From positions 99,500,149 through 99,564,148 of the forward strand of contig OY757021.1 in the NCBI GenBank assembly GCA_963580285.1: a DNA stretch of 64,000 nt, given 5' to 3'. The translations under genes were made by a program, and so were the position numbers. The notes under the pieces were generated by a model. That model searched no databases. It saw only the letters and a list, made by a program, of their open reading frames with translations, and was not told where the DNA came from. The first letter of the stretch is position 1, and each line of letters starts with the position of its first letter. This document shows, one piece after another, positions 33,946-55,989 of the stretch. The DNA is from Lucinisca nassula (lineage: Eukaryota; Mollusca; Bivalvia; Lucinida; Lucinidae).

Positions 33946-35010
33946 CATATACATGTACTTTCCCACAAAAATGGCCAATTGGCTATCCAAAACAAAACAA
34001 AAAATATAAGCGATATACACACACTCAAAGACGAACCATAACAAAAGAAAAAAGACAGGCAGAAGAACCGCCTTTGAACGGTCAGTGAAACGAATTCCAA
34101 ATTCCACTGGAGGGTGTGTGGGTGGGGGCGGGGTGGCTTCAATCGATTTTATGCGGCCGCAATCCTCGCCCCTTACTTCCGTCGCGATTTAGACAAATGA
34201 TTTGTTCAGTCCGCATAGAGATCTCCTAACTCATCAGTGCAAAATATCCGAGAACACAAAAAATCAAACAACCACAGAGATAAAACAATGGTGAGGACAC
34301 GACAGCAAGAAACCTCTAAAATGCTGGAGCAGGAGAAAACCAACAGTTAGACTCCGATAGGGCCGACCAGAGACAGAGCATCAGTCACCAACCAACATTA
34401 CATAAAATTAAAGTCTAATTCTCAGTAAGCTTTTACGCTGGAACCGTCATAGAATCTCAGGCCTGTCCCACCGACGTGCAATTAAAGAGGGAAGCAAAGT
34501 TGTCAACCGTGATAGGGTTAACTACAATACATGCAGTCTGTCGTTTAACATTTATATTGTACCCAGTGTTTTTATATCGTAGAAGGTTTTTGCGAAATTT
34601 GGTACTGAAGTCATTGCAAGCACATTTTTTTTCTGAATTCATATACTATGTCACGATAAAATTCGAGTACCGATAGACATTGTTGCGGAAGCTCTAGATT
34701 TAAGTTCAATGTTGAATGTTGAAATTAAATCGGAATAACGTCTATAAAATTTTGAAAAGACTTTGCGTACTTTATGATACCGATAACCCTGCTTGAGAAG
34801 TTTGGAAGTTAACAATTTATCACGAGTGTTACATGCCTAGGCAGATTGGCAAGTCGTACTATTTGCGAAATATAAACGCCATAGGATGCCGCACGAGGAA
34901 CATCACCATCCAAGAAAGAAACATTTGCAATCTCAACATCAAAATCATCGCGTTTATCATAAATGTTGCAGGAAACAAACCTATCTACAATAGATAGATG
35001 TAAATCTAAA
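33946..35010 (-). mobile_element. Penelope-like retroelement, outer copy, 3' part
   Basis: This aligns along its length with 48936-49960 inside the Polinton, at roughly 85-90% by eye. Shared features are the TTCCCACAAAA start, CCTCGCCCCTTACTTC, ACCAACATTAC and the C-terminal coding part. Readable minus-strand coding patches include RKNLLRYKNTGYNINVKRQTA and ITVDNFASLFNCT-like sequence (34457-34642). It is interrupted at 35010/35017 by the Polinton; the remainder continues at 55990. The Penelope assignment is tentative: the RT type (GIPMGTNCAPL, YLDD) fits, but no GIY-YIG endonuclease is visible. Confidence 0.65.
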
Positions 35011-35016
35011 AACGGG
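35011..35016 (+). repeat. Polinton target-site duplication, left
   Basis: AACGGG immediately before the terminal inverted repeat, matched by AACGGG at 55984-55989. Six-base duplications are the rule for Polintons. The related uninterrupted sequence inside the element (around 49960) reads AAAAACGGGACCTCGG, showing the empty-site form. Confidence 0.97.
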
Positions 35017-35584
35017 AGTAGTATAGGGTGTCACTATGGGGACCAGATTATGGGGACCAGATTATAGGGACTGGTCCCTATAATTCTGTTGGTCCCCATA
35101 ATCTGGTCCCCATAGTGACGCCGCTTGATGTAAGCTTGACTAGGATAGAATGGGTCTTGGGGTGGTCAATAGTGTGTTAGCTGGATACCTTCCGAGATGG
35201 ACTGAGTGTTTTTGTGTTGATTACCTTGGTCCCTATAAATCTTCAGTTTCTGAAATTTATAGGGACCAAGTTTGAATTGACTTAGCCTGAAAATAACTTA
35301 GTTTTTTTGGTGATCTTTCAAGTAGATCCAGGTGTTTGTGTTGATTGCCTTGGTCCCTATAAATCTTCAGTTTTTGAAATTTATAGGGACCAAGGCTAAA
35401 ATGACTTGGTCCCTATAAATCTTCAGTTTTTGAAATTTATAGGGACCAAGCCTAAAATGACCTGGTCCCTATAAATTTGATGTTTGGTGAAATTATAGGG
35501 ACCAAGCTTGAAAATGACTTAGTCTTTTGTTGGAAATCTTTCAAGAGGTCCAGGGATACCACAAGATGGCATTATGTTGTTCTT
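35017..35584 (+). repeat. Polinton left terminal inverted repeat (568 bp)
   Basis: Begins AGTAGTATAGGGTGTCAC and ends GGCATTATGTTGTTCTT, matching in reverse complement 55416-55983. The outer 90 bp is itself palindromic: GTCACTATGGGGACCAGATT faces its inverse near 35095-35120. Further in are four hairpins built on GGTCCCTATAAAT and ATTTATAGGGACC. No coding frame lies in it. Confidence 0.95.
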
Positions 35585-35617
35585 TTGGAAATAAATTGAA
35601 ATTGAAAAAAAATGTTT

Positions 35618-35689
35618 GGCACGAATAGGGCTCGAACCTATGACCTCCTGCTTATCAGACAGGTGCTCTACCAACTGAGCTAAAGTGCC
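35618..35689 (-). tRNA. tRNA-Ile(GAT)-like gene inside the Polinton
   Basis: The minus-strand 72-nt sequence folds as a cloverleaf. The D arm GCTC/GAGC, the anticodon stem CCTGT/GCAGG around loop CTGATAA (anticodon GAT) and the T stem ATAGG/CCTAT are all fully paired. The acceptor stem pairs at five of seven positions, with mismatches at the two innermost. It is followed within a few bases by eight T residues, a pol III terminator. It lies 33 bp inside the left terminal repeat. It could be a real tRNA carried by the element or a tRNA-derived insertion; the acceptor mismatches argue for caution. Confidence 0.6.
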
Positions 35690-35740: not shown

Positions 35741-35778
35741 TATTCTTTCTTAACTGTTTGATAGCCCTGAAAAGGGCT
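35741..35778 (-). terminator. Histone-type 3' stem-loop and downstream element (gene 1)
   Basis: On the minus strand AGCCCTTTTCAGGGCT (35778-35763) is followed by ATCA and then AAGAAAGAATA (35751-35741). A six-pair stem with loop TTTC, then a purine-rich element about 11-14 nt later, matches replication-dependent histone mRNA 3' ends. The stem-loop starts 27 nt after the stop codon at 35805. No AATAAA lies between. Confidence 0.75.
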
Positions 35779-35804
35779 GTTTGGGTTTTGAATAACTTAT
35801 TCTT

Positions 35805-36200
35805 TTATCTGGTTTTCTTTTTACGTATGGGTTTGGTGGCTGCTCCAAGGCCAATAGCTGATGATGACTGCATCAGTTGTTCATCTTCATTCGCCACGAT
35901 ATTGATATGGAGTGGAATCCTAATAGGACTCATTTCTAGTGATGATGGTTGTTGAGGACGATCTTCTAACTGTTTGACTCTGTTTTTGAGCTCATTGATT
36001 TCCTTCACCAAGACTTCAATAACTTTGGGTTGAGGTTTGGATTGTTGTACTGGGGGCTGTGCATAGATCAGTTGGTTAGATGGTATTGTTGTATATTGTT
36101 GTTGTTGTAAGGTAGCATCACTACCAAATGTTTCATTGATAGCGGTTGTTAAAAGATCTGGATTTTGCAAGAGATCATCAAATGATATTGACGGTTCCAT
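35805..36200 (-). CDS. Polinton accessory protein 1, Q-rich with coiled coil
   Basis: 131 residues, not recognised. It has a Gln-rich stretch at about residues 32-60, a short predicted coiled coil at about 60-80 (VIEVLVKEINELKNRVKQLE) and a basic tail (KPIRKKKTR) that could be a nuclear signal. The ATG at 36200 is preceded by a TATA box at 36241-36232 and the AAGTAGGTCAATCC motif at 36265-36252, both on this strand. The mRNA would end in the histone-type stem-loop just downstream. It is transcribed divergently from accessory gene 2. The composition suggests a small nuclear or DNA-associated protein, but that is inference. Confidence 0.7.
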   Translation of the reverse strand: MEPSISFDDLLQNPDLLTTAINETFGSDATLQQQQYTTIPSNQLIYAQPPVQQSKPQPKVIEVLVKEINELKNRVKQLEDRPQQPSSLEMSPIRIPLHINIVANEDEQLMQSSSAIGLGAATKPIRKKKTR

Positions 36201-36231
36201 TTTTTTTCAAGAAAACTGAAGTAGGTAAAAT

Positions 36232-36265
36232 CCTTTTTATACTCTGGAGAGGGATTGACCTACTT
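36232..36265 (-). promoter_or_regulatory. TATA box and AAGTAGGTCAATCC motif of accessory gene 1
   Basis: On the minus strand AAGTAGGTCAATCC (36265-36252) lies 10 nt before TATAAAAAGG (36241-36232). The same motif and spacing precede the TATA boxes of accessory genes 3 and 4. Confidence 0.65.
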
Positions 36266-36353
36266 GCAAAAAATACTTTCTTTCACGTCCGTGTTCACTC
36301 AATAAATATCGATGCATTGCCCTACTTCGTTGCACTTCTGTGTACAATTGAAG

Positions 36354-36713
36354 ATGGCTCACAACAGTGAAATCTACTTCAAAGCTTTGGAAGAACAGAC
36401 GGAGTCACTTAAGGGTGGCGTGAGAGAATTGATGCTCTCGTTTGACATAGTCAAGCGAGAAGCTGAAGGATTATTTTCCTCGATTGACAATATGGAGAAG
36501 ATGATAGCCATAACAAAAGAGGCAGCAGAGTTGGCACATGGACAACGGTTGGATGGTGAGATGCCTGGGTCCTCTGCTGCCACACAGACGGAAGACTGGA
36601 GCCAAGAAGCGACAGAGCCTCCATTCTGTCTTTCCAGTGGGTCCAGGATTACTTATGAATCCTGGGCAACCAGATGTCCAGCCTGTGGAGGACGAACATG
36701 CTGCCAATGTTAG
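36354..36713 (+). CDS. Polinton accessory protein 2, Cys-rich tail
   Basis: 119 residues from the ATG at 36354 (context AAGATGG). An upstream in-frame ATG at 36312 would add 14 residues, but I prefer the second for its context and for the polar N-terminus that follows. The N-terminal 60 residues look helical and possibly coiled coil (KALEEQTESLKGGVRELM, IDNMEKMIAITKEAAELA). The C-terminus has five cysteines in twelve residues (CPACGGRTCCQC), which suggests metal binding. Not recognised. A canonical histone-type stem-loop begins 28 nt after its stop. It is transcribed away from accessory gene 1. Confidence 0.65.
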   Translation: MAHNSEIYFKALEEQTESLKGGVRELMLSFDIVKREAEGLFSSIDNMEKMIAITKEAAELAHGQRLDGEMPGSSAATQTEDWSQEATEPPFCLSSGSRITYESWATRCPACGGRTCCQC

Positions 36714-36740
36714 TTGTACATACCTAACAAAAAACCCAAC

Positions 36741-36760
36741 GGCCCTTTTCAGGGCCATCA
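36741..36760 (+). terminator. Histone-type 3' stem-loop (gene 2)
   Basis: GGCCCTTTTCAGGGCC at 36741-36756, flanked by CCCAAC and ATCA: six G/C-rich pairs around a TTTC loop, the consensus histone mRNA form. The element 14 nt further (GAATGAATG) is a weaker purine-rich match than at genes 1 and 3. Confidence 0.75.
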
Positions 36761-36844
36761 TATATTTTTGAATGAATGTCCTTTGATAATGTTCAATCAA
36801 GATTCCTAAGTCTGGTATTTGCTATGATGTTTCAAAACAACAAA

Positions 36845-36948
36845 CATCATTGCTACACCAAAGACGAAGAATTCTCTGATTATGATTGGCTAAGTCAATT
36901 TTTTCCGATTTAAAGTAGGTCAATCCGATGTCACTTGTATATATATAT
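36845..36948 (+). promoter_or_regulatory. Promoter of accessory gene 3
   Basis: In order: a 32-nt block at 36845-36876 (starts CATCATTGCTACACC) identical to 37299-37330; an inverted CCAAT box (ATTGG at 36885-36889); AAAGTAGGTCAATCC at 36912-36926; and a TATATATATAT box at about 36938-36947. The start codon follows at 36978. Confidence 0.65.
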
Positions 36949-36977
36949 CATTCATAGTTATTACAAACTTCATAACC

Positions 36978-37163
36978 ATGGATGAATACCCAAAGTCTGG
37001 TATTTGCAGTGAGTGTAATGCTCCAACTTATCTTGAATGTGGTAAGTGCTACGTCATTCTAAGGTATGTTGGAGAGGAACACAACTGCCCTGATGATGAC
37101 GATGGGTTCTTTGAAGACGACAGTTTGTCCATATGTGATGAGTGTCTGGAACAAAAAAACTGA
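36978..37163 (+). CDS. Polinton accessory protein 3, small acidic zinc-ribbon-like
   Basis: 61 residues with the start in a good context (ACCATGG). Cysteines fall in pairs, C10-x2-C13, C21-x2-C24 and C53-x2-C56, plus H36/C37, which suggests one or two zinc sites. The middle is strongly acidic (DDDDGFFEDD). Not recognised as a known family. A promoter with CCAAT and TATA elements lies directly upstream, and the best histone-type stem-loop with downstream element lies 27 nt after its stop. Short, but the cysteine pattern and flanking signals make it convincing. Confidence 0.7.
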   Translation: MDEYPKSGICSECNAPTYLECGKCYVILRYVGEEHNCPDDDDGFFEDDSLSICDECLEQKN

Positions 37164-37189
37164 ACCTTTAAAGGTTCTCTAGACCAAAT

Positions 37190-37227
37190 GGCCCTTTTCA
37201 GGGCCACCACTTATTCTTGAAAGAGGA
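37190..37227 (+). terminator. Histone-type 3' stem-loop and downstream element (gene 3)
   Basis: GGCCCTTTTCAGGGCC at 37190-37205 is followed by ACCA and, 13 nt later, TTGAAAGAGGA (GAAAGAGGA at 37219-37227), the U7-snRNP-binding type of element. This is the closest of the four to the textbook histone arrangement. Confidence 0.8.
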
Positions 37228-37298
37228 CCTTTTGATGATCATACAAAAGATTCCTAAGTCTGATATTGGCTATAATGATCTATGTTTCGAACATAGAC

Positions 37299-37410
37299 CA
37301 TCATTGCTACACCAAAGACGAAGAATTCTCTTAGGATGATCACGATTGGCTAAGCCAATTTGATTGGTTGTTCGATTAAAGTAGGTCAATCCTCCTACAT
37401 TGTATAAAAG
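37299..37410 (+). promoter_or_regulatory. Promoter of accessory gene 4
   Basis: A 32-nt block identical to 36845-36876. CCAAT boxes in both orientations follow (ATTGG at 37345, CCAAT at 37355, ATTGG at 37363), then AAAGTAGGTCAATCC at 37378-37392 and TATAAAAG at 37403-37410. The coding start is at 37448. Confidence 0.7.
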
Positions 37411-37447
37411 CCCTTCTGCTTTTGAGTTCTCACCATATTGTTCCAGT

Positions 37448-37651
37448 ATGACTTGGTTTAAGAAGTTACGTGCTGTCTTCCACCGAAGGAAACCAAAGGT
37501 GGAAAGACAACAGCCATGTACTGAGGAAGAGTACTGGAAGAAAGTGGAGAGGTTACAAAGCGGACTGGCTTTCCAGCAGTTCCTGGCTAGAAGGGGAGTG
37601 GGATCGGTTACCATTAAACCGATCGCTATAGTGGAGCCATTCCGTGGCTAG
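37448..37651 (+). CDS. Polinton accessory protein 4, small basic
   Basis: 67 residues from the ATG at 37448, 38 nt after the TATA box. An in-frame upstream ATG at 37400 precedes the TATA box and is unlikely to be used. The N-terminus is basic and amphipathic (MTWFKKLRAVFHRRKPK). The rest has no recognised motif. A fourth, less perfect histone-type stem-loop lies 32 nt after the stop. The gene is convergent with the zinc-knuckle gene. Confidence 0.65.
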   Translation: MTWFKKLRAVFHRRKPKVERQQPCTEEEYWKKVERLQSGLAFQQFLARRGVGSVTIKPIAIVEPFRG

Positions 37652-37682
37652 TAACTGTTTAAGTTACTAGCTACATAAGAAC

Positions 37683-37724
37683 AGTCCTTTTTAGGGCTAA
37701 CCCATGGATTTCGTTAAAGAATAA
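37683..37724 (+). terminator. Histone-like 3' stem-loop, variant (gene 4)
   Basis: AGTCCTTTTTAGGGCT at 37683-37698 forms a six-pair stem with one G-T pair and a TTTT loop. It is followed by AACCCA and then AAAGAATAA at about 37716-37724. A diverged version of the signals after genes 1-3. Confidence 0.5.
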
Positions 37725-37874: not shown

Positions 37875-38417
37875 CTATTTTGTCTTTGGTTTCTTCACAC
37901 CACGAGTGTTAGAAGTTGTTCGCTTTCTTTTTCTTGATTTCTTAACACTAGTCTGGGATTGTTTCTCCTCAGTAGAAGTCTGTTTCTCTTCGGCACAAGA
38001 CTGATTGTCATCGGCACAAGACTGTTTCTCATCGGCACAAGACTGTTTGTCCTGAGGATTGTCAGATGATATTTCTTCAGTAGGTAATGTAGATGGTATG
38101 TCCAACTCATCTTGTATCAACTGCTTCTGTGGACATTCGGGTGCCCAATGATCTGGAAGTCCACATATGTAACAGTGTCCGTAGGGTAGCTTGAAGCCCG
38201 ATGTACAATCTCTTGACCAGTGTGTCGTAGCATTACATCTGAAGCAACGACCATAAGGTGTTCCCATCAGTTGTTGATCAAGAAGTGATTTTTCCAATGT
38301 TCGTAGAAGATGGATATCATATTGTTGTTTCAAAAAATTCTTTAAACTTGAACAATGGTAGTAGATACTTTCAGGATCACTATATTTCTTTGTTCTTGGA
38401 TCCCTATTGTATTCCAT
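37875..38417 (-). CDS. Two-zinc-knuckle (CCHC) nucleic-acid-binding protein
   Basis: 180 residues from the ATG at 38417. The frame extends upstream only with a GTG codon, which I reject. Two CCHC knuckles of the form C-x2-C-x4-H-x4-C are clear (CFRCNATTHWSRDC and CYICGLPDHWAPEC). After them come imperfect seven- to eight-residue repeats (KQSCADE, NQSCAEE, KQTSTEE) and a highly basic C-terminus (KKSRKRKRTT, KKPKTK) that looks like a nuclear signal. CCHC knuckles usually bind single-stranded RNA or DNA, so a role with the genome or transcripts is likely but inferred. Last gene of the leftward block, with a poly(A) signal 14 nt beyond. Confidence 0.8.
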   Translation of the reverse strand: MEYNRDPRTKKYSDPESIYYHCSSLKNFLKQQYDIHLLRTLEKSLLDQQLMGTPYGRCFRCNATTHWSRDCTSGFKLPYGHCYICGLPDHWAPECPQKQLIQDELDIPSTLPTEEISSDNPQDKQSCADEKQSCADDNQSCAEEKQTSTEEKQSQTSVKKSRKRKRTTSNTRGVKKPKTK

Positions 38418-40676: not shown

Positions 40677-43600
40677 ATGCCAAAGAGACATTGGAAGCGA
40701 ATAAGAACTCCATCCAGTTCGGGTGATGAGTCGATACCTAAGAGGCCTAAGTTGGTAGATTATTCTGACACTGAAGACGAAGATGAAGAATATGAACAAT
40801 ATTATACCATGAAACCAGTAAGACAGAGGGAGTCGAGGCGATTTAGAACAAGAGCCAATGTATACAGCGTGGACATGAAAAAGTTTCCTGAGAAAACATC
40901 ACCATTAGAATTTGTACCACGATTATTCCAACAATTGGTGGATGATATCAAGAGACATACCGAGGCACAGGGCAATGATAGAATAAGAGTTAGTATCTAC
41001 CATCCTGGACTTAAACTTGGGGTGTTCATACCCTTCACAGATGTGTCTTCATTGACTGGAGAAGCCCTGTCCCATGAAATTGAGAAAGTCTTACAGTCCA
41101 ATGAAGACTTCAGAATTGATGATGGCCAGATGTCAATGGAAGTGACACATACAAGACTCCCTGTAGGAAGTGGAAGAACCCCACTCCATTATGGACTCTA
41201 CTTTGATTCTAACAACATGAGAAAGATGAAAAGAAGTATTGTTACCATCAACAATACAGAAGACTCCATGTGTCTGGCTAGAGCTGTGGTTGTCGGCAAA
41301 TGTTATGCTGACAAAGATGAATCCCCGACCTGGAAGAAGACATGGGAACATATACGTAAATCTACCAAGTCTTTCCAGACGAGTGAAGCTAAGAAGTTGT
41401 TGGATCGAGCTCAAGTTCCACATACCAAACCTTGTGGACTTGATGAATACAAGAAGATCCAAGCTGTGTTAGCTCCTGACTACCTGATCAAAGTACATTC
41501 TCAACATGCGAAAGATGACCTTCTCTTCAAACCTGAATTCGAAATGGCCAAACAGACAAAAGTGATACATATATACTATAATGGAGACAATCATTATGAT
41601 ACTATCACCAGTATAACTGGTTTTCTAGGATGTATATACTTCTGTGAACTTTGTGACAAAGGATATAGCAATCGTGGTGATCATATGTGTCCCCATGGAT
41701 GTGACAAATGTTACAATGAGACATTATGTGCGGCAGGAGAAACTTGTTTCTGTAGGGATTGTAAAAGAAAATTTTACAGTCCTCAATGTTTTGCTCATCA
41801 TAAAAGAATCAAACCTGGACAGAAAAAGTCCATGTGTCAGTTAGTGTATAATTGTGGAAATTGTTTCAGTAGAATTATTGGGAGTAAGAAAAATCATGTT
41901 TGTCCAGGGAATCGAAAATGTAGATTTTGTAAAGAGGTCGTGGGTGCAAATCACCAGTGTTACATACAATCTTATGTTTGTAAGACTGATGGTGATGCAC
42001 CCAACAAATCTGATGATGATGAAGAAGAAACAAGTTCTTCCTCCTCAAAGTACATTTTCTTTGATTTTGAATCTTCACAAAATACTGGAGAACATAAAGT
42101 TAATTTCTGTGTAGCACATAGAGCCTGTGACCAGTGTATCCATTTACCTATCCATGAAAAGTGTAAAAATTGTAGCAAGTTCCCAGACCAAGGAAGAGAA
42201 ATGATCTTTGAAGGTCCTGGTACTTTGCATGAGTTTTGTACTTGGCTATTTCAACCTTTTAATGAAGGCTCAATTTGTATTGCACACAACTTTGGTGGAT
42301 ATGATGGTCAGTTTATTTTGAGATATCTCTTAGAGAATGGAACTTACAAACCAGAGGTGATCATGAATGGGCATACCATCATAACCATGAAAGCTGGAAA
42401 ACTTGAGTTCAAAGATTCGTTTCAGTTTTTGCACATACGTTTGGCTAGTTTCCCTGATACCTTTGGACTTAAAGAAATGAAGAAAGGTTATTTCCCACAT
42501 TTGGCAAATACTGAAGCTAACCAAAACTATGTAGGTCCATACTTTCCTGCTGAAATGTATAACCCTGGCCAGATGTCTAGCAAAGACAGAGACGACTTCT
42601 TGCAATGGCACAAGTCTAAAGTTGAATCTAATGCTATCTTTAACTTCAGGCAAGAAATGGAAGAGTATTGTCGGAGTGATGTCGATATCTTGAGGAGAGG
42701 TTGTGCTTGCTTTAGGCAACAGTTGATGGAAACAAGTGGAATTGACCCCTTTAAAGTAGCATGTACGGTGGCTCAAACTTGTTCTCTCGTTTGGAGAAAG
42801 GATCATATGCCAGAAAACTCTGTAGCTATTATTCCTCCTGAAGGCTATCCAAACCAAAAGAAATATTCGATCAAGGCTGTAAGATGGTTGCAGGTTATGG
42901 CTAAGAAAACGAACACACACATTCAATATGCATTGAATGGTGGGGAACAGAAAATTGGTGAGTTTTACGTTGATGGGTTTGACCAAGAAAATAAGAAAAT
43001 CTATGAATTTCAAGGTTGTTATTGGCATGGTTGTCAAAGATGTTATCCTGACAGACATAAGATCAATACCTACAACTGTTTGAAGATGGACACTCTTTTT
43101 TGTTCCACTTTGAGAAAGATTGAAACTCTGAAAGCTGCAGGGTATGAAGTCATACAATGTTGGGAATGTGATTTTGACAAACAGTGTAGAGAAGACAAAG
43201 AATTCCAAACTTTGGTAGAAGCTGAATTTACTAACTTGGACCCCTTGAAACCCAGAGATGCTTTGTTTGGGGGAAGGACTAATGCTACTAAATTGTACCA
43301 TGAGATTGATGAGCGTTCAGATCAAGAAATCAAGTACATTGATGTCTGTTCTCTGTACCCATACATTTGTAAATATGGTGTTTTCCCACTAGGTCATCCG
43401 GAGATTTATTCTCAAGAAGAAATTGACAAAGACAATATCCAACAATATTGTGGTCTGATCAAATGTAAAGTTCTTCCACCCAGAAACTTGTATCATCCAG
43501 TACTCCCTTACAAATGTAACAATAAACTTCTGTTTCCACTCTGTAGAACATGTGCAGAGAAGTCAGACAACTCACAACTTTGTCATCATACTAAAGCAGA

Positions 43601-44627
43601 AGATAGAGAATTGGTTGGAACTTGGGTCAGTATAGAATTATTTGAAGCCCTGAAACTTGGGTATCAACTTACTGAAATTTATGAGGTTTGGCATTTCCCT
43701 GAGACAACTCAGTATGATAAAGAAACTGGCCAAGGTGGAATCTTTGCTGGGTACATTGATACATTCCTCAAAATAAAGCAAGAAGCCAGTGGGTATCCTG
43801 ATTGGTGTAAAACTGAGGCAGACAAAGAAAAGTTCAAACAAGATTACTTTGAGGCAGAGGGAATTAGATTGGAGCATATTGAAAAGAATAAGGGTCGTAG
43901 GGCTACTGCAAAGACTGAGTTGAATAACTTGTGGGGAAAATTGGCTCAAAGAGATAATATGACTAAAACTGAATACATCTCGGAACCATCAACATACTTT
44001 GAATTGGTAAGCAATCCCATGAAAAAAGTCAAGTATGTTGATGTCTATGGTGAACAGTTTTTACATGTCAACTGGGAAGAAACAGACTCTATCATTGAAC
44101 CTCATAGTTGCAGTAATGTGGTGGTAGCATCTTTTGTGACAGCACAAGCCAGATTGAAATTGTACAGTGTTTTACACAAACTTGATACACGTGTACTCTA
44201 CTTTGACACTGACTCTGCAATCTATGTCCACAATCCCAAACTTTGGAATCCAACGATTGTGAATAATCGACTTGGGGAATGGACTGATGAGATGCCCAAT
44301 GCAAAAATCACAAAATTTGTTGGTATGGGTCCAAAGAACTATGGTTACGAGTATGTTGAAAACAATGGTGATAGAAAATCCACTTGTAAAGTGAAAGGAC
44401 TGACTTTGGATTTTAACACTTCTCAAATCATACATTTTGAGAAAATGTTAAACTGGGCAAAATCCAAAGATAGAGATTTCCGTGAAACTGTGCAATATCA
44501 ACATAAAATCAGAAAACATCCCAATAGAAAAGTGACCACTGAAAAACTTTCAAAGATTTATAGATTTACCTATGACAAACGGGTGATTGTGAAAAATGGG
44601 TACACTGTGCCATATGGTTATGAATAA
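40677..44627 (+). CDS. Protein-primed DNA polymerase B with OTU-like and nuclease-like domains
   Basis: 1316 residues. It replicates the element. An acidic/basic N-terminus is followed by an OTU-protease-like stretch: DSMCLARAV with Cys199 and DNHYDTI with His306. A Cys/His-rich zinc region occupies about 318-430. The 3'-5' exonuclease motifs are DFE (463-465), HNFGGYD (537-543) and YCRSD (664-668). An insert at about 745-835 (FYVDGFDQENKKIYEFQGCYWHG, then GYEVIQCWECDF) looks like a PD-(D/E)XK nuclease fold. Polymerase motifs are A, DVCSLYP (889-895); B, K1079 with NNLWG; and C, DTDS (1177-1180), then KNYGY. All catalytic residues appear intact. The length is usual for Polinton polymerases. 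Confidence 0.95.
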   Translation: MPKRHWKRIRTPSSSGDESIPKRPKLVDYSDTEDEDEEYEQYYTMKPVRQRESRRFRTRANVYSVDMKKFPEKTSPLEFVPRLFQQLVDDIKRHTEAQGNDRIRVSIYHPGLKLGVFIPFTDVSSLTGEALSHEIEKVLQSNEDFRIDDGQMSMEVTHTRLPVGSGRTPLHYGLYFDSNNMRKMKRSIVTINNTEDSMCLARAVVVGKCYADKDESPTWKKTWEHIRKSTKSFQTSEAKKLLDRAQVPHTKPCGLDEYKKIQAVLAPDYLIKVHSQHAKDDLLFKPEFEMAKQTKVIHIYYNGDNHYDTITSITGFLGCIYFCELCDKGYSNRGDHMCPHGCDKCYNETLCAAGETCFCRDCKRKFYSPQCFAHHKRIKPGQKKSMCQLVYNCGNCFSRIIGSKKNHVCPGNRKCRFCKEVVGANHQCYIQSYVCKTDGDAPNKSDDDEEETSSSSSKYIFFDFESSQNTGEHKVNFCVAHRACDQCIHLPIHEKCKNCSKFPDQGREMIFEGPGTLHEFCTWLFQPFNEGSICIAHNFGGYDGQFILRYLLENGTYKPEVIMNGHTIITMKAGKLEFKDSFQFLHIRLASFPDTFGLKEMKKGYFPHLANTEANQNYVGPYFPAEMYNPGQMSSKDRDDFLQWHKSKVESNAIFNFRQEMEEYCRSDVDILRRGCACFRQQLMETSGIDPFKVACTVAQTCSLVWRKDHMPENSVAIIPPEGYPNQKKYSIKAVRWLQVMAKKTNTHIQYALNGGEQKIGEFYVDGFDQENKKIYEFQGCYWHGCQRCYPDRHKINTYNCLKMDTLFCSTLRKIETLKAAGYEVIQCWECDFDKQCREDKEFQTLVEAEFTNLDPLKPRDALFGGRTNATKLYHEIDERSDQEIKYIDVCSLYPYICKYGVFPLGHPEIYSQEEIDKDNIQQYCGLIKCKVLPPRNLYHPVLPYKCNNKLLFPLCRTCAEKSDNSQLCHHTKAEDRELVGTWVSIELFEALKLGYQLTEIYEVWHFPETTQYDKETGQGGIFAGYIDTFLKIKQEASGYPDWCKTEADKEKFKQDYFEAEGIRLEHIEKNKGRRATAKTELNNLWGKLAQRDNMTKTEYISEPSTYFELVSNPMKKVKYVDVYGEQFLHVNWEETDSIIEPHSCSNVVVASFVTAQARLKLYSVLHKLDTRVLYFDTDSAIYVHNPKLWNPTIVNNRLGEWTDEMPNAKITKFVGMGPKNYGYEYVENNGDRKSTCKVKGLTLDFNTSQIIHFEKMLNWAKSKDRDFRETVQYQHKIRKHPNRKVTTEKLSKIYRFTYDKRVIVKNGYTVPYGYE

Positions 44628-44718: not shown

Positions 44719-45411
44719 ATGTCAAGCATTCAGACACCAGTAGTACAAGATATTAACAGTTTGTTTTTTAAACATCCTGCTAATCTCTTTATATCAGGTC
44801 CAAGTGGATCTGGAAAAACAGAGTTTGTAAGAAAAGTAATTGAATACAAAGATGACTTGTTTGATATTCAACCACAACGTATCGTGTGGTGCTACAAAGA
44901 ATGGCAACCAACTTATAATATCTTGCAAGAACGTGAAGGATCCAACATCACATTTCTTTCTGGAATTCCCAATGACGATGATGACATTGTCAGCGATACG
45001 AGTTTGTCTCACTTGATCGTCTTTGACGATATGTTAGGAGACAAAGATGAAGAAAAAATCAAATTGTGGTTTACAAGGAAAGGGCATCATCGAAATGCAA
45101 GTGTGATATACATCACGCAAAATTTGTTTCACCAAAGTAAAGATAGTCGAACTATCAGTTTGAATGCACATTATCTCATTTTGTTTCAAAGTCCTCGAGA
45201 TAAAATGCAAGTCAAAGTTTTGGCAAAACAACTTCAATCTCCACATTTGATGTATGCTTTCAATGATGCCACATCCAAACCACATGGATACTTACTGATC
45301 GATTTGAAGCCAGATACACCAGATCTGTTGAGATTTAGAACAAATATTTTTCAAAACTGGTTTACAAAACCAAATCATCAAGGACCAGTTGTTTATTTCC
45401 CAAACATATAA
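44719..45411 (+). CDS. FtsK/HerA-A32-type genome-packaging ATPase
   Basis: 230 residues. Walker A is GPSGSGKT (27-34) and Walker B is LIVFDD (99-104), followed by a VIYITQNLFHQ segment with the polar residue expected of the A32/FtsK group. This enzyme drives DNA into capsids in related viruses and is standard in Polintons. Length and motifs are normal and no disruption is seen. Its stop codon lies inside the TATA box (TATAAAAG) of the next gene. Confidence 0.93.
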   Translation: MSSIQTPVVQDINSLFFKHPANLFISGPSGSGKTEFVRKVIEYKDDLFDIQPQRIVWCYKEWQPTYNILQEREGSNITFLSGIPNDDDDIVSDTSLSHLIVFDDMLGDKDEEKIKLWFTRKGHHRNASVIYITQNLFHQSKDSRTISLNAHYLILFQSPRDKMQVKVLAKQLQSPHLMYAFNDATSKPHGYLLIDLKPDTPDLLRFRTNIFQNWFTKPNHQGPVVYFPNI

Positions 45412-46596: not shown

Positions 46597-47373
46597 ATGG
46601 CTATTGTCCCATTCAAACTTTGGGAAGATATAAAACGTTGGAAAGAGGAACAAATTCAGAAACCTAGATTACCACCTGATCCTGAAGTTTCGGCTACTGC
46701 TAATCTTCAAAACGACTTGTCTTCTGTTATGAGTAATAATGAAATCTCGGAATCAGAAAAGTCTCAGTTGTTTGGTGAAACTTTGCATAAATTTAAGACG
46801 GCTCATAAAAAAGCTTTAAAAGAACCTTCAGTTTCCCTTTCCCAGCCTGTTCTGCAACCTAAGAAGATTGATCAGCACATTATTGACAGTGTTCCTTCCA
46901 CCATGAAAAGAAAAGCTCAGCTTTTGCTTTCTATGTTGCAAGAAAATAAAAACATAGCTTGGGATGATGATGGTACAGTCAAGATGTATGGAAAACCTAT
47001 TCCTGGTTCTAACATTATCGACTTGGTCAATGATGTGATCAGACATAGGAAAGGTATTGAGCCCACGGGTTGGCAAGCTTTTGCACAAGGGTTGAGAGAA
47101 TTGAATATTCCTCAAGATGTGGTAGGCAATAGAGAAAGATGGGAATGGATGCACGAACATCAGCTTCCTCCTCCTGAACAATCACCAGAGGATGTCTTTG
47201 TGACTCCTCCTAAAACAAAACGTCATAAAATAAGGACTCCCTATACAAAACAGCGTAAATATGATCTGCCATCAGTCAAAAAACACGTACGGCGATTAGC
47301 GAGAAAACATATAAAAGAAGAAGAAATGGAAGGTCCTTTCATACCTAAATGGTTAACCTATGATGAACAATGA
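46597..47373 (+). CDS. Conserved Polinton protein of unknown function
   Basis: 258 residues from the ATG at 46597. An in-frame ATG at 46558 would overlap the previous gene and is less likely. Segments typical of this Polinton family are VPSTMKRKAQLLLSMLQ, PIPGSNIIDLVNDVI and GWQAFAQGLRELNIPQDVVGN. The C-terminus is Pro-rich then basic. Function unknown. Its TGA overlaps the ATG of the integrase (ATGA). Confidence 0.8.
   Translation: MAIVPFKLWEDIKRWKEEQIQKPRLPPDPEVSATANLQNDLSSVMSNNEISESEKSQLFGETLHKFKTAHKKALKEPSVSLSQPVLQPKKIDQHIIDSVPSTMKRKAQLLLSMLQENKNIAWDDDGTVKMYGKPIPGSNIIDLVNDVIRHRKGIEPTGWQAFAQGLRELNIPQDVVGNRERWEWMHEHQLPPPEQSPEDVFVTPPKTKRHKIRTPYTKQRKYDLPSVKKHVRRLARKHIKEEEMEGPFIPKWLTYDEQ
47310..47317 (+). 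promoter_or_regulatory. Candidate TATA box of the integrase gene
   Basis: TATAAAAG 53-60 nt before the integrase ATG at 47370, inside the previous coding region. Confidence 0.45.
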
Positions 47374-48434
47374 AGTTTGAAAAATTATATTATGATCCTA
47401 AAAGTCCTGCTGCCTATGCTGGAGAACAAGCTTTATTCCAGTTAGCTAGAAAAACTTCTAAAAAAGTAAAACTTAAAGATGTCAGGGATTGGTTGAGGAA
47501 ACAAAAGACGTACACTTTGCATAAACCTATTCGAAGAAAATTCAAACGTCGAAAAACTGTTGTTGCAGGAATCGATTATCAATGGCAAGCAGATTTAGCA
47601 GATGTATCAAGTATGTCTAAGTTCAATGACAAACACCGATACTTGCTTTGTGTCATTGATGTATTTTCCAAATTTGCCTGGGTTGTTCCCATCAAAGATA
47701 AGACGGGTAAAACTTTGATCAAAGCATTCAAATTGATCTTGAAAAAACGAAGTCCAAAAAGCCTCCAGTCTGATAAGGGAACAGAATTTAAAAATAAAAA
47801 TTTTCAGAATTTTTTAAAGTCAAAAAAGATTCATTTTTTCACGACAGAAAATCCTGAAACTAAAGCCAGTATTGTCGAAAGATTTCAAAGAACTTTGAAA
47901 AGTCGCATGTGGAAATATTTTACACATCATCGTACGCTGAGATATATTGATGTACTTCCAAAATTAGTTCATGGTTACAACCATGCATATCATCGAAGTA
48001 TCAAATGTGCACCTGCATCTGTTACTAGCAAAAACGAAGTTGTAGTGTCAGAAAATTTATTTGGAAAGAAACAAAAACATCAAAGTCCAAAATTAAAAGT
48101 CAGTGATTATGTTCGCATTAACAAGACAAAACGTACTTTTGATAAAGGTTATTTACCAAACTGGACACAAGAGTTGTTTCAAATTTCGGCTGTGTACAAA
48201 CATCAAAATCCTGTAACCTATAAAATAGTAGATCTAGATGGCGACGTAGTTAAAGGCACTTTTTACTCGCAAGAGTTACAACGTGTAGAAAAAGATCAAA
48301 TATTCGAAATTGAATCTATCATAGATCGCAGAAAACCTAAAATTGGTAAAAAGTGGATCAAAGAAATAAAAGTTCACTGGAAAGGGTATCCATCTAAATT
48401 TGATAGTTGGATTTTAGAATCAGATCTTCTATAA
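47370..48434 (+). CDS. Retroviral-type (rve) integrase with C-terminal chromodomain
   Basis: 354 residues. The DDE catalytic triad is D75 (WQADLADVS), D135 (LQSDKGTEF) and E170 (KASIVERFQ), with 35-residue D-to-E spacing. The last 45 residues (IESIIDRRKPKIGKKWIKEIKVHWKGYPSKFDSWI) form a chromodomain, which can bind modified histone tails and may guide target choice. The enzyme inserts the element and leaves 6-bp duplications, as seen here. No disruption is visible. Confidence 0.95.
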   Translation: MKFEKLYYDPKSPAAYAGEQALFQLARKTSKKVKLKDVRDWLRKQKTYTLHKPIRRKFKRRKTVVAGIDYQWQADLADVSSMSKFNDKHRYLLCVIDVFSKFAWVVPIKDKTGKTLIKAFKLILKKRSPKSLQSDKGTEFKNKNFQNFLKSKKIHFFTTENPETKASIVERFQRTLKSRMWKYFTHHRTLRYIDVLPKLVHGYNHAYHRSIKCAPASVTSKNEVVVSENLFGKKQKHQSPKLKVSDYVRINKTKRTFDKGYLPNWTQELFQISAVYKHQNPVTYKIVDLDGDVVKGTFYSQELQRVEKDQIFEIESIIDRRKPKIGKKWIKEIKVHWKGYPSKFDSWILESDLL

Positions 48435-52043: not shown

Positions 52044-52487
52044 ATGCGTACTATTCATTATCATCAGTCTGGAGCAGGATTTAAAGACTTTCCCGTCTAT
52101 CGAGGTGTCTCAAGACAATATGGCCATGGTTTAGGTTCAATATTTAAAACAGCAATGCGAAGTGTTGTTCCCATTTTAAAACCTCTAGCACAAGCAGGAA
52201 TAAAAAGTGCAAAACAAGTTGCAAAAAAGGAGGGACTAGGTGCTCTTCGCGATATGTTGGAAGGTCAAAATATCAAACAAGTTTTGAAACAAAGAGGCAA
52301 ACAAAGTTTGAAATCTCTCGGAAAATCTGCTCTGGATGAATTAAGCGGGGGTATAAAATCAAAAGGCAAATCTAAAAAGAATCAGTCTAAGACTAAACGT
52401 CAAGGTGTTAAGAAGGGTCAAAAAAAGAAAAACTCAATTGCTATTCCAAAAAATCTTAAATTTCCGAAAGATATTTTCGATCAATAA
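52044..52487 (+). CDS. Basic adenovirus pVI/pX-like Polinton protein
   Basis: 147 residues, starting in a TAATG overlap with the minor capsid stop. It opens with YHQSGAGFKDFPVYRG, then a glycine- and alanine-rich amphipathic region (LKPLAQAGIKSAKQVAKKEGLGALRDM) and a very basic tail (KSKGKSKKNQSKTKRQGVKKGQKKK). The layout resembles adenoviral core/cement proteins cleaved by the viral protease. The exact match is uncertain. Its TAA overlaps the major capsid ATG. Confidence 0.75.
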   Translation: MRTIHYHQSGAGFKDFPVYRGVSRQYGHGLGSIFKTAMRSVVPILKPLAQAGIKSAKQVAKKEGLGALRDMLEGQNIKQVLKQRGKQSLKSLGKSALDELSGGIKSKGKSKKNQSKTKRQGVKKGQKKKNSIAIPKNLKFPKDIFDQ

Positions 52488-53782
52488 TGATGCAATCAGG
52501 TTCTTGTGAGTGCAGCAAAACGGAGTTGGAAATGCAATCCGTTCCTCCGACAATGACAACTATGCAAGAAACTCAGTGGACTGATTATCATCCTATCGCT
52601 TCCCTGGATAGTTATCAGGCGCCCATTGAATTTTTGGTTCCACCCCATACTGAATATTATACAGATTTATCTCAAACTTATCTTTATCTGAAATGTAGAA
52701 TCCTGAAACCAGATGGAACTAATATTGAGGACAAAAAGGTTGCCCCTATCAACAACTTCTTTCACAGTATGTTCAGTAGCATCGATTTGTACCTGAATAA
52801 TAAACTGGTCACAAGTAATATGGATACATATCCGTACAGAGCCTACATAGAAAACTTATTTTCCTTTGGAGCAGATGTCAAAGACAATCAGTTAAAAGCT
52901 GCAGAGCATTGGTATGAAGATGAACCTGGGAGATTTGAGGATTTTGAATGTGATAACATAAAAAAAGGCCGAGGTGAAGCTACAAAACAAAGTAAATCTT
53001 TGGAACTCATGGGCCGATTACATTTAGATCTGGCCATGCAAGACAAATATCTTCCGAATGGGATCGAAATCAAACTCAGACTTAACAGAGCATCTCCTCA
53101 ATTTTGTATCATGGCTGAGGATGGTTACCCTGTAGTACTCAAAATTGATGTAGCCAAACTGTCAGTGAGAAATGTACAACTTCTACCAGCAATCACAAAC
53201 GATTTGAATCAGAGCATTGCTCAACATAATGCCAAATTCCCCATCAGAAGAGTTGAGGTGAAAACATTTACCATTGGTACTGGACTCAGATCTAAAATTG
53301 AAGACCATCTGTTCCAGGGCCAACTTCCAAAACGATTGTTCATTGGCATGGTTCCTAATGAAACATTCAATGGCACGTTTCCCACGAACCCCTTTAACTT
53401 CCAACCTTTCAATCTCAGTAAATTGGATGTCACACTCGATGGACACAATATCTATGGCAGACCCTTTGAACCTAACTTCACCAGAAACGAGTATCTTCGA
53501 TCATACATGTCACTGTATCAGGCCCTGAGTAGTCGAGACCAAGTTCAGAATTGTAACATCGATTACGAGGATTACAAAGACGGATACACATTCTGGGGAT
53601 ATGACTTCACACCTGATCAAGCTGCTGACCAGAGTCATCTCCACCCTATAAAAACTGGAAACCTGAGACTAGAACTTCAGTTTGCCAATTCGCTCGCAAA
53701 GACTATCAACGTCATTGTGTATGCTGAATTTGATAATCTGATAGAAATTAACGGACTCAGAGAAGTAATCACAGACTACTGA
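52487..53782 (+). CDS. Double-jelly-roll major capsid protein
   Basis: 431 residues, ATG in a TAATGATG overlap with the upstream gene. Conserved Polinton capsid segments are IEFLVPPHTEYYTDLSQTYL, INNFFHSMFSSIDLYLNNK, YPYRAYIENLFSFG, LPNGIEIKLRLNR and NLRLELQFANSL. This is the trimeric hexon-like coat protein that defines Polintons as potential viruses. It appears intact. Confidence 0.93.
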   Translation: MMQSGSCECSKTELEMQSVPPTMTTMQETQWTDYHPIASLDSYQAPIEFLVPPHTEYYTDLSQTYLYLKCRILKPDGTNIEDKKVAPINNFFHSMFSSIDLYLNNKLVTSNMDTYPYRAYIENLFSFGADVKDNQLKAAEHWYEDEPGRFEDFECDNIKKGRGEATKQSKSLELMGRLHLDLAMQDKYLPNGIEIKLRLNRASPQFCIMAEDGYPVVLKIDVAKLSVRNVQLLPAITNDLNQSIAQHNAKFPIRRVEVKTFTIGTGLRSKIEDHLFQGQLPKRLFIGMVPNETFNGTFPTNPFNFQPFNLSKLDVTLDGHNIYGRPFEPNFTRNEYLRSYMSLYQALSSRDQVQNCNIDYEDYKDGYTFWGYDFTPDQAADQSHLHPIKTGNLRLELQFANSLAKTINVIVYAEFDNLIEINGLREVITDY

Positions 53783-53790
53783 AAAAAAAG

Positions 53791-54396
53791 ATGCATAGTG
53801 GATACTATATTGAAGAAGAACTGAGGGATTATCTACTATGGTCAGATTCTACTTCATCTGGAAATAGTATGCTACAAAAAGAATTTGAGGGATTATCAGA
53901 AGACAATGAAACACTGGGACGACAAAAATGGATTAAAGATACCCTTATACGAGCCATGAAGATCAACTTGATGACTGCTATATTTGACTATGCCCGTCAC
54001 CAGTGCCAAGGATGTAGAATAAATCATCCCAGTCAGAAATACCATGACTTATGCTTGTGGACAAAACCAAACGAATGGATAACAGACTATGGTATACATA
54101 TGCATGCCCTGAATAATCTCAACATCTACGATGTCATCCAAAAATGGGACGAGTTGCTCCTGGATGAAGTACCATCAGAAGAAAGAAGAAAAGAATATAG
54201 TGCTATGACAGGATTGGACCATTTAACACCATCTGAAAAAGTCGAAGCCTATAAAAACTGGATGTTCCTGAAAAACAGCCATAACAGATACGGAAGAAAA
54301 CCTGACTACAACGAGTGGAGAGACTTTTGGAAACAGAAATTAACAGAAGCTACTCCGTCGGAGACATCACCAGAAAAATGGACACACATGAACTGA
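53791..54396 (+). CDS. Conserved Polinton Cys/His protein downstream of the capsid gene
   Basis: 201 residues. The central RHQCQGCRINHPSQKYHDLCL offers Cys and His residues spaced for one zinc. Helical elsewhere, with Trp-rich patches (WTKPNEWITDYG, YNEWRDFWKQ). It occurs next to the capsid gene in many animal Polintons; the function is unknown. It overlaps the protease gene start by 19 nt. Confidence 0.8.
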   Translation: MHSGYYIEEELRDYLLWSDSTSSGNSMLQKEFEGLSEDNETLGRQKWIKDTLIRAMKINLMTAIFDYARHQCQGCRINHPSQKYHDLCLWTKPNEWITDYGIHMHALNNLNIYDVIQKWDELLLDEVPSEERRKEYSAMTGLDHLTPSEKVEAYKNWMFLKNSHNRYGRKPDYNEWRDFWKQKLTEATPSETSPEKWTHMN

Positions 54397-54989
54397 GGAA
54401 AATTCTATACTATATGTCTGTTAATGGAGATGTATGTGCCAAAGATCTCTTACCAGAGAAGAAACCTCTAGACATGAAAGCCTATATCATAAACACTGAC
54501 AATTCAGATGAACCAGGAGAACATTGGGTAACCGTATACTTCAGAGGCCATCAAGCTATCTACTTTGATTCTTATGGAATGCCACCAGAAGATGACTATA
54601 TTCTACCTTTCATCCAAAGAAATTCCAGAAGTTGGATTCAAAATACAGAACCATTACAAAGTCCATGGAGTAAAAACTGTGGAATGTGGTGTATATACAT
54701 TATTCATCAACTTGAAAAAGGACTAGACTTGAAGAAAGCTATTCATGGGGAACTGTATGGCACAGGAGAAGACTTATACCAAAATGACAGTGACATTGAC
54801 AGATGGTTCAGTGCTAATTATGGCAAAGTGATCTGGACACAAATTAAGTCTAATTATGGCAAATTGATCTGGACACAAAATGACATGCCAACTCCAAAGT
54901 TTCTTTACAAACATAGAATTCAAGTTTGCAAATGCTTGAGAAATACACATTGCTTATCAAAGAAATACCCCATGTATTTAATGTTGTAA
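54378..54989 (+). CDS. Adenain-type (Ulp1/C48-like) cysteine protease
   Basis: 203 residues from the ATG at 54378. A longer frame start at 54315 overlaps the previous gene more and is less likely. Catalytic residues in adenain order are H49 (GEHWVTVYF), D64 (YFDSYG), Q94 (LQSPWSKNCG) and C101 (NCGMWC). In related viruses it matures capsid proteins. Near the C-terminus a short tandem duplication (ANYGKVIWTQ then SNYGKLIWTQ; DNA about 54816-54882) adds about 11 residues before a Cys-rich tail. Otherwise intact. Confidence 0.9.
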   Translation: MDTHELRKILYYMSVNGDVCAKDLLPEKKPLDMKAYIINTDNSDEPGEHWVTVYFRGHQAIYFDSYGMPPEDDYILPFIQRNSRSWIQNTEPLQSPWSKNCGMWCIYIIHQLEKGLDLKKAIHGELYGTGEDLYQNDSDIDRWFSANYGKVIWTQIKSNYGKLIWTQNDMPTPKFLYKHRIQVCKCLRNTHCLSKKYPMYLML

Positions 54990-55415: not shown

Positions 55416-55983
55416 AAGAACAACATAATGCCATCTTGTGGTATCCCTGGACCTCTTGAAAGATTTCCAACAAAAGACTAAGTCATTTTCAAGCTTGGTC
55501 CCTATAATTTCACCAAACATCAAATTTATAGGGACCAAGTCATTTTAGGCTTGGTCCCTATAAATTTCAAAAACTGAAGATTTATAGGGACCAAGTCATT
55601 TTAGGCTTGGTCCCTATAAATTTCAAAAACTGAAGATTTATAGGGACCAAGGCAATCAACACAAACACCTGGATCTACTTGAAAGATCACCAAAAAAACT
55701 AAGTTATTTTCAGGCTAAGTCAATTCAAACTTGGTCCCTATAAATTTCAGAAACTGAAGATTTATAGGGACCAAGGTAATCAACACAAAAACACTCAGTC
55801 CATCTCGGAAGGTATCCAGCTAACACACTATTGACCACCCCAAGACCCATTCTATCCTAGTCAAGCTTACATCAAGCGGCGTCACTATGGGGACCAGATT
55901 ATGGGGACCAACAAAATTATAGGGACCAGTCCCTATAATCTGGTCCCCATAATCTGGTCCCCATAGTGACACCCTATACTACT
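55416..55983 (-). repeat. Polinton right terminal inverted repeat (568 bp)
   Basis: Reverse complement of 35017-35584 with at least three base differences by eye and no length change. It ends CACCCTATACTACT before the AACGGG duplication. Confidence 0.95.
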
Positions 55984-55989
55984 AACGGG
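55984..55989 (+). repeat. Polinton target-site duplication, right
   Basis: AACGGG, identical to 35011-35016. Confidence 0.97.

Follow-up and report, generated by a model that had tools for sequence, protein, structure and literature searches.

In the genome of the clam Lucinisca nassula, four small genes of a Polinton (a virus-like mobile element) carry the signals of histone genes, but the proteins that they encode are not histones. The element lies in a window of 64,000 nucleotides (64 kb) that we analysed at its full length (contig OY757021.1, positions 99,500,149 to 99,564,148 of the forward strand), and the four genes, which we call genes 1-4, occupy the space between its left arm and gene 5. 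Each of the four is followed by a hairpin of the form that is found on animal histone messages, and genes 1, 3, and 4 also have the promoter element of the host's H2A and H2B genes. What we observed directly are the sequences, how they match the histone genes of the host, and how well they are conserved between copies of the element. From these signals, we think it likely that genes 1-4 are built like replication-dependent histone genes, that they would be expressed in S phase by way of the factors that act on H2A and H2B, SLBP, and the U7 small nuclear ribonucleoprotein (U7 snRNP), and that the element combines two systems of 3'-end formation. Genes 1-4 are probably switched on while the host cell copies its DNA. 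The genes and their hairpins are (in coordinates of the window, with scores from the Rfam model Histone3):

35805..36200, minus strand: gene 1, reading frame of 131 amino acids; no Pfam match at the cut-off
35763..35778, minus strand: hairpin of gene 1, AGCCCTTTTCAGGGCT; 29.5 bits; unchanged in 10 of the 11 other copies of the element that have the site
36354..36713, plus strand: gene 2, reading frame of 119 amino acids; CPAC and CCQC in its C-terminal part
36741..36756, plus strand: hairpin of gene 2, GGCCCTTTTCAGGGCC; 36.5 bits; unchanged in 11 of 12 copies, of which 10 were found via this hairpin
36978..37163, plus strand: gene 3, reading frame of 61 amino acids; three CxxC pairs, acidic
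37190..37205, plus strand: hairpin of gene 3, GGCCCTTTTCAGGGCC; 33.9 bits; unchanged in all 6 copies that retain the site
37448..37651, plus strand: gene 4, reading frame of 67 amino acids; net charge +9
37683..37698, plus strand: hairpin of gene 4, AGTCCTTTTTAGGGCT; 12.1 bits; no changes at 132 stem sites in the copies

That four small genes are each followed by a 16-nucleotide (nt) hairpin of the histone type had been claimed in a preliminary description of this DNA, and this is confirmed: the pattern RGYCCTTTTYARGRCY has four exact matches in the window, as compared to a mean of 0.01 in dinucleotide shuffles, and none of 100 shuffles reached four. Each hairpin is on the strand of its own gene and always lies 3' of the reading frame. 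By our count, the hairpins begin 26, 27, 26, and 31 nt past the stop codons of genes 1-4, which is one fewer in each case than was first reported (27, 28, 27, and 32). All four strands fold as a stem of 6 base pairs with a loop of 4 nt (z = -3.6, -3.0, -3.2, and -1.2 for genes 1, 2, 3, and 4), and the first pair of the stem is G-C in two of the genes and A-U in the other two. Scoring against Histone3 (RF00032; cut-off of 34 bits), which had been proposed as a check, gave a mixed result: gene 2 (36.5 bits) is above the cut-off, gene 3 (33.9 bits) is 0.1 below it, gene 1 (29.5 bits) is below it, and gene 4 (12.1 bits) is far below it. Histone3 is the best-supported Rfam family in the window by E-value, if we set the tRNA aside. 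Covariation across the four hairpins does not separate structure from chance: 82 of 500 shuffles were equally good.

The histone genes of the same genome, with which a comparison had also been suggested, carry the same signal. Their Histone3 scores are 39.3 and 38.6 bits for H2B, 38.7 for H2A.X, 36.9 for an H3-like gene, and 35.2 for H2A, and H1 has two successive hairpins of 26.4 and 32.4 bits, both of which are under the cut-off. The scores of genes 2 and 3 overlap with those of the host, and because genes 1-3 score 29.5-36.5 bits as against 12.1 bits for gene 4, genes 1-3 are inside the range of the host's histones and gene 4 is outside it. The host's hairpins lie 29-35 nt past the stop, as compared to 26-31 nt in the Polinton. 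More broadly, genes 1-4 resemble animal replication-dependent histone genes (H2A and H2B) in the hairpin, its distance from the stop, the 3' flank, the downstream element, and the short uninterrupted reading frames. They differ in their location, which is a mobile virus-like element and not a histone array, and in their products: as the preliminary description had stated, these are not histones (a Pfam scan of the four proteins found nothing at the cut-off and no histone match). In another lucinid clam, Lucina pectinata, the histone messages have a stem-loop close to the stop and some have purine-rich elements (PMC6210712); those genes are similar in these respects, but they encode histones, unlike genes 1-4. 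A host H1 gene has its two hairpins, GGTCCTTTTCAGGACC and GGCCCTTATTAGGGCC, in series, with a downstream element after the second (locus L084, 7036-7124, minus strand). The host's histone array also includes an H3-like gene whose histone hairpin is normal but whose N-terminus is strongly altered (MARKKTTPPISRGG...; L076, 884-1357, and L083, 2576-3049, both on the minus strand).

Downstream of the hairpins are purine-rich elements, which begin 11, 14, 14, and 17 nt after hairpins 1-4. Those of genes 1, 3, and 4 are clear, as had been described; gene 2 has a weaker one that had not been listed. Thus, each gene has a hairpin soon after the stop and a purine-rich element soon after the hairpin, weakly so at gene 2. 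These elements, along with the neighboring gene 5, are:

35741..35751, minus strand: purine-rich downstream element of gene 1, AAGAAAGAATA; 4 changes at 121 sites in the copies
36771..36779, plus strand: weak purine-rich element of gene 2, GAATGAATG
37220..37228, plus strand: purine-rich downstream element of gene 3, GAAAGAGGA; 6 changes at 54 sites in the copies
37716..37724, plus strand: purine-rich downstream element of gene 4, AAAGAATAA; 1 change at 90 sites in the copies
37875..38417, minus strand: gene 5, with two zinc knuckles and no hairpin; AATAAA at 37861-37856, 13 nt past the stop

In the 400 nt that follow their stops, none of genes 1-4 has AATAAA; gene 3 does have ATTAAA, 211 nt past its stop. 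Gene 5 (the tail-to-tail neighbor of gene 4) and the element's protease gene each have a nearby AATAAA in place of a hairpin, and it is because of this that we propose two systems of 3'-end formation. The DNA polymerase gene has ATTAAA 38 nt past its stop. It seems possible for both systems to operate in one element because either processing complex can be recruited by one human histone pre-mRNA, in which a poly(A) signal and the downstream element overlap (PMC9756948).

The promoters of three of the genes are of the histone type as well. The features are:

36252..36264, minus strand: H2A/H2B-type promoter motif AGTAGGTCAATCC of gene 1; 10 nt farther on, TATAAA at 36241-36236
36914..36926, plus strand: H2A/H2B-type promoter motif AGTAGGTCAATCC of gene 3; 11 nt farther on, TATATA from 36938; GATTGGCTAA upstream
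37380..37392, plus strand: H2A/H2B-type promoter motif AGTAGGTCAATCC of gene 4; 10 nt farther on, TATAAAA from 37403; GATTGGCTAA upstream
36220..36233, plus strand: divergent variant AGTAGGTAAAATCC on the side of gene 2; a poor match to the motif

So AGTAGGTCAATCC is exact at genes 1, 3, and 4, where it lies 9-12 nt before a TATA box, and gene 2 does not have this arrangement. The host's H2A genes have the identical 13 bases, then 11 nt, then TATATA; the H2B genes have ATTAGGTCAATCC, then 11 nt, then TATATAAGG. Genes 1, 3, and 4 are thus like the host's H2A and H2B both in the motif and in its spacing to TATA. Furthermore, GATTGGCTA is found upstream in H2A and in Polinton genes 3 and 4. If we allow up to one mismatch, the motif with TATA is present in 15 of 17 H2A genes and 17 of 28 H2B genes, as opposed to none of 14 H4, 3 H1, 2 H3-like, and 4 H2A.X genes; these counts include some genes twice, as 17 of the 29 loci L028-L056 have DNA in common with L076, L083, and L084 (either they overlap or they are near-identical units of the array), and they exclude canonical H3, for which no start was found in the loci compared. 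All four H2A.X genes have, also at this spacing, a form of the motif with three mismatches. Control DNA from the host (127,037 bases) has seven sites with up to two mismatches, none with TATA at this distance (after the sole exact match, the bases are masked). The remainder of the Polinton has no site at all. Each of 12 other copies of the element has the motif two to four times (up to one mismatch), and one to three of these are with TATA. Among the copies, the motif changed at 2 of 156 sites at gene 1, 0 of 78 at gene 3, and 0 of 156 at gene 4, where the count includes one copy (L060) that has no gene 4. The 13-mer AGTAGGTCAATCC also occurs in an interspersed repeat of the host, in the context agaAGTAGGTCAATCCC and without TATA (L059 at 968, minus strand; L075 at 3857, plus strand, followed by masked bases; L076 at 4726 and L083 at 6384, both plus strand).

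The other copies came from a Histone3 scan of the 2.93-Gb host assembly, in which 75 of 619,456 candidates were scored; the window's own match was not listed, so the copy numbers are lower bounds. Of these 75 matches, 56 are on contigs C7 and C565 (a histone array, in the parts that were read) and 19 are dispersed. Twelve of the dispersed matches belong to additional copies of this Polinton (L060, L061, L063-L071, and L073), which makes at least 13 copies with the window's, and 10 of these have three or four intact hairpins. The other seven are two H2A.X genes (L058 and L059), three non-histone reading frames with a hairpin (L057, L072, and L075), an H2B-like fragment (L074), and L062, which has no reading frame of 40 amino acids or more. 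The copies differ from the window by 4-11% over the aligned part of this region. Because they were found via hairpin 2 (ten copies) or hairpin 3 (L063 and L065), it is hairpins 1 and 4 that give a test of conservation that is free of selection by the search. Across 11 copies, hairpin 1 has 1 change at 132 stem sites and hairpin 4 has none at 132, or 1 in 264 together, as compared to 389 of 6833 other non-coding sites (5.7%; this background may include other functional sites) and 624 of 3986 third codon positions; the counts omit columns 36757-37379 for L060 and L067-L071. All five changes in the loop of hairpin 4 are at its fourth base, where four copies have C and one has A in place of U; this base is also variable among histone-type hairpins elsewhere in the host genome. 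When 11 of the 12 copies were rescored with Rfam (L070 was left out for its size), hairpin 2 scored 36.3-37.8 bits in ten and 26.1 bits in L065, which has a change in the stem; hairpin 1 scored 27.7-31.0 bits in nine and gave no row in L071, which also has a stem change; and hairpin 3 scored 37.4, 36.8, 30.0, 30.0, 24.2, and 24.2 bits. Five copies (L067-L071) lack gene 3, and they lack its hairpin too.

The three non-histone frames deserve mention in their own right. L057 (3050-3415, minus strand) encodes 121 amino acids with an acidic end, and 32 nt past its stop is GGTTCTTTTCAGAACC, which has the top Histone3 score of the genome scan (39.4 bits). L072 (3087-3488, minus strand) encodes a CxxC-rich protein of 133 amino acids that is distantly similar to that of gene 3 (39% over 31 amino acids) and contains LECTE; it has its own histone-type hairpin 22 nt past the stop (36.3 bits), and the roughly 13 kb to each side of it contain no Polinton genes, according to a tblastn search with the proteins of the window. 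L075 (3055-3642, minus strand) encodes a GDSL/SGNH-like protein of 195 amino acids (under the Pfam cut-off) with a histone-type hairpin 20 nt past the stop (34.9 bits).

Genes 1-4 do appear to encode proteins. In a test of codon usage with a table from the core genes, the annotated frame is the best of six for genes 1-3 and the second best for gene 4. The coding score of gene 1 (0.087) is above the 95% level of random 200-nt stretches from the host (0.077), and those of genes 2-4 (0.054, 0.067, and 0.054) are under it. Between copies, codon positions 1, 2, and 3 diverge by 2.2, 1.8, and 12.2% in gene 1; 14.1, 8.1, and 25.1% in gene 2; 2.8, 0.9, and 5.3% in gene 3; and 5.1, 3.7, and 10.0% in gene 4. 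The excess of variation at third positions shows that these are protein-coding genes; the case is clearest for gene 1, whose first and second codon positions are under purifying selection. A search for homologues of the proteins of genes 1 and 2 found none at E = 1e-3. The proteins of genes 1-4 may prepare the S-phase cell for replication of the element or exploit it. The Oncoid accessory genes of animal DNA viruses are small and lineage-specific; the genes here are similar in kind, and gene 3 is acidic and CxxC-rich. On the other hand, the retinoblastoma-type motif LxCxE is absent from genes 1-8 (gene 3 shows only LECGK), and a preprint defines Oncoids solely via short linear motifs (PMC11071296). 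We found no paralogy between genes 6 and 7.

Overall, the presence of histone-type 3' processing signals on non-histone genes of a Polinton, which was the central claim of the preliminary description, is well supported by the likeness to the host's genes and by retention in the copies, least so for gene 4. As to what the signals do, the mechanism that we propose is that the transcription factors of the host's H2A and H2B genes would activate the genes in S phase, that SLBP would bind the hairpin and U7 snRNP would pair with the downstream element, and that the messages would be cut a few bases past the hairpin, without poly(A), and would vanish as S phase ends. The histone-type system would serve the small S-phase genes and ordinary polyadenylation would serve the rest. 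In our view, these signals are best read as timing to S phase through SLBP and U7, and this reading is strengthened because genes 1, 3, and 4 share their promoter element with the host's H2A and H2B. With somewhat less confidence, we lean toward a broader proposal: that a family of animal Polintons took over the full H2A/H2B regulatory package, from promoter to 3' end, for a regulon of accessory genes that is expressed only during replication of the host's DNA, and left the rest of the element on poly(A) signals.

Several observations weigh against these proposals. Hairpin 4 scores poorly (12.1 bits) and gave no Histone3 row at E <= 1 in the copies scanned. Hairpins 2 and 3 are not independent, as a cassette that runs from the hairpin to the following promoter has been duplicated, and in two copies hairpin 3 scores just 24.2 bits, which is less than the best chance hairpin that we scanned (25.6 bits). 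The downstream element of gene 2 is weak, and the gene has no good copy of the promoter motif. The motif is also missing from 11 of 28 of the host's H2B genes, and the 13-mer without TATA in the interspersed repeat lies near histone genes. The copies share ancestry, and a block test of their conservation is modest: 3.7% of random non-coding blocks are equally conserved. One copy, L060, retains gene 3 yet has lost hairpin 3; it has also lost gene 4, and an insertion separates the promoter of gene 3 from its TATA. It looks like a decayed copy. Finally, AATAAA or ATTAAA is expected 0.47 times per 400 nt, and among the 16 other genes there are 4 that also have neither in this range, so only close-lying poly(A) signals carry weight.

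Among the alternatives, the one that we take most seriously, tentative as it is, would have the signals serve 3'-end formation and high expression rather than S phase, for example while histone messages are being produced and stockpiled in the oocyte or early embryo. A histone-type promoter and a histone-type hairpin would be expected here as well, and mobile elements gain most from being active in the germ line or the embryo. But the host genes that share the motif are the H2A and H2B genes of the array, whose hairpins place them in the replication-dependent class, and the H2A.X genes have only the form with three mismatches.

It is unlikely that the signals are passengers, that is, that the element acquired the flanks of host histone genes by chance and the hairpins and promoters came along for the ride. 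The 3' end of one of the host's H2A.X genes is 79% identical to the Polinton cassette over 63 nt, which fits an origin from a host histone gene, and L060 (with gene 3 but not its hairpin) and the two low scores for hairpin 3 would also fit. Against this, the signals are retained in copies that have diverged by 4-11% from the window, and gene 1 is maintained by selection. We are more doubtful still that the hairpins are decoys, with abundant Polinton transcripts absorbing SLBP and U7 so that the supply of host histones falls and the element's DNA is packed less into chromatin. The number of copies with intact hairpins would suit a decoy, but a decoy requires neither a hairpin at a histone-like distance past its own frame, which every gene has, nor a histone-type promoter, which three of the four have.

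Chance hairpins, or structures that act at the level of DNA such as cruciforms or terminators, seem hardly credible: short hairpins are common (a relaxed scan gave a mean of 4.15 matches per simulated window, n = 100), but the exact form is not, strand and position always follow the reading frame, and pure chance is refuted for the hairpins of genes 1-3. A similar hairpin string occurs in 25 stretches of viral contigs and in one bacterial contig. These look like chance rather than true histone ends: few have histone-like flanks, and of the 8 viral stretches that were scanned, six gave a Histone3 row and two gave none, with 25.6 bits as the best score.

We know of no other mobile element or virus that runs non-histone genes on histone-type messages, and if our proposal of S-phase expression is correct, this would be the first. 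Similarly, the preliminary description knew of no such report for Polintons, and we found none for non-histone genes of Polintons, other transposons, or viruses in the open full-text literature (titles and the beginnings of abstracts), which leaves most subscription journals outside. A virus-like element that puts other proteins on histone-type messages with a matching promoter would be a natural test of how much the promoter and the hairpin each contribute to expression in S phase, and it would show how Polintons tie themselves to the host's cell cycle. There is a practical consequence too: RNA libraries that are selected for poly(A) would miss genes 1-4.

The element itself is a complete Polinton, at 35017-55983 of the 64-kb window, with the target duplication AACGGG on either side and arms of 568 nt that are 99% complementary. 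It thus has the long terminal inverted repeats (TIRs) and 6-bp target duplication of Polintons, and it has the core genes as well:

35017..35584: left TIR, which starts with AGTAGTATAGGG; AACGGG adjoins it
35617..35689, minus strand: tRNA-Ile gene, anticodon GAT, immediately inside the left TIR; a run of T lies downstream
40677..44627, plus strand: DNA polymerase B (PolB) of the organellar and viral type, a core Polinton gene; Pfam match
44719..45411, plus strand: A32-like packaging ATPase; Pfam match
47370..48434, plus strand: integrase (rve) with a chromodomain; Pfam match
52487..53782, plus strand: probable major capsid protein, 431 amino acids, assigned from its position and size; no Pfam match
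54378..54989, plus strand: adenovirus-type protease; Pfam score of 18.7 bits, slightly under the cut-off of 21.3; AATAAA 85 nt past the stop
55416..55983: right TIR, 99% complementary to the left arm; followed by AACGGG

In its TIRs, target duplication, PolB, A32-like ATPase, integrase with chromodomain, and adenovirus-type protease, the element is like known Polintons (Mavericks) and adintoviruses, and it differs from them, as far as titles and the beginnings of abstracts show, in that its accessory genes have histone-type ends and H2A/H2B-type promoters. The probable capsid protein has 970 matches in a protein search, including the window's own copy. Candidatus Thiodiazotropha is a symbiont of clams, and among the 120 matches listed, one is labelled as a metagenome-assembled genome (MAG) of this organism; the other named organisms among those listed are the bivalves Mercenaria, Saccostrea, Ostrea, and Crassostrea. 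Homologues of the capsid protein in other bivalves reach 82% identity. Related DNA was not found in a collection of viral contigs for the capsid protein (as a single sequence or as an alignment), PolB, the integrase, or the ATPase; nor did the capsid alignment find any outside of the host in a collection of genome contigs, and the capsid protein had no match in a collection of phages.

The tRNA-Ile gene is present at the same place in 10 of the 12 other copies (by ARAGORN), with the anticodon AAT in L060. It appears to be unusual for a Polinton to have a conserved tRNA gene. The Polinton also sits within a copy of an interspersed repeat, and a second copy of the same repeat lies inside the Polinton (34170-35017, 49119-51233, and 55984-57114).

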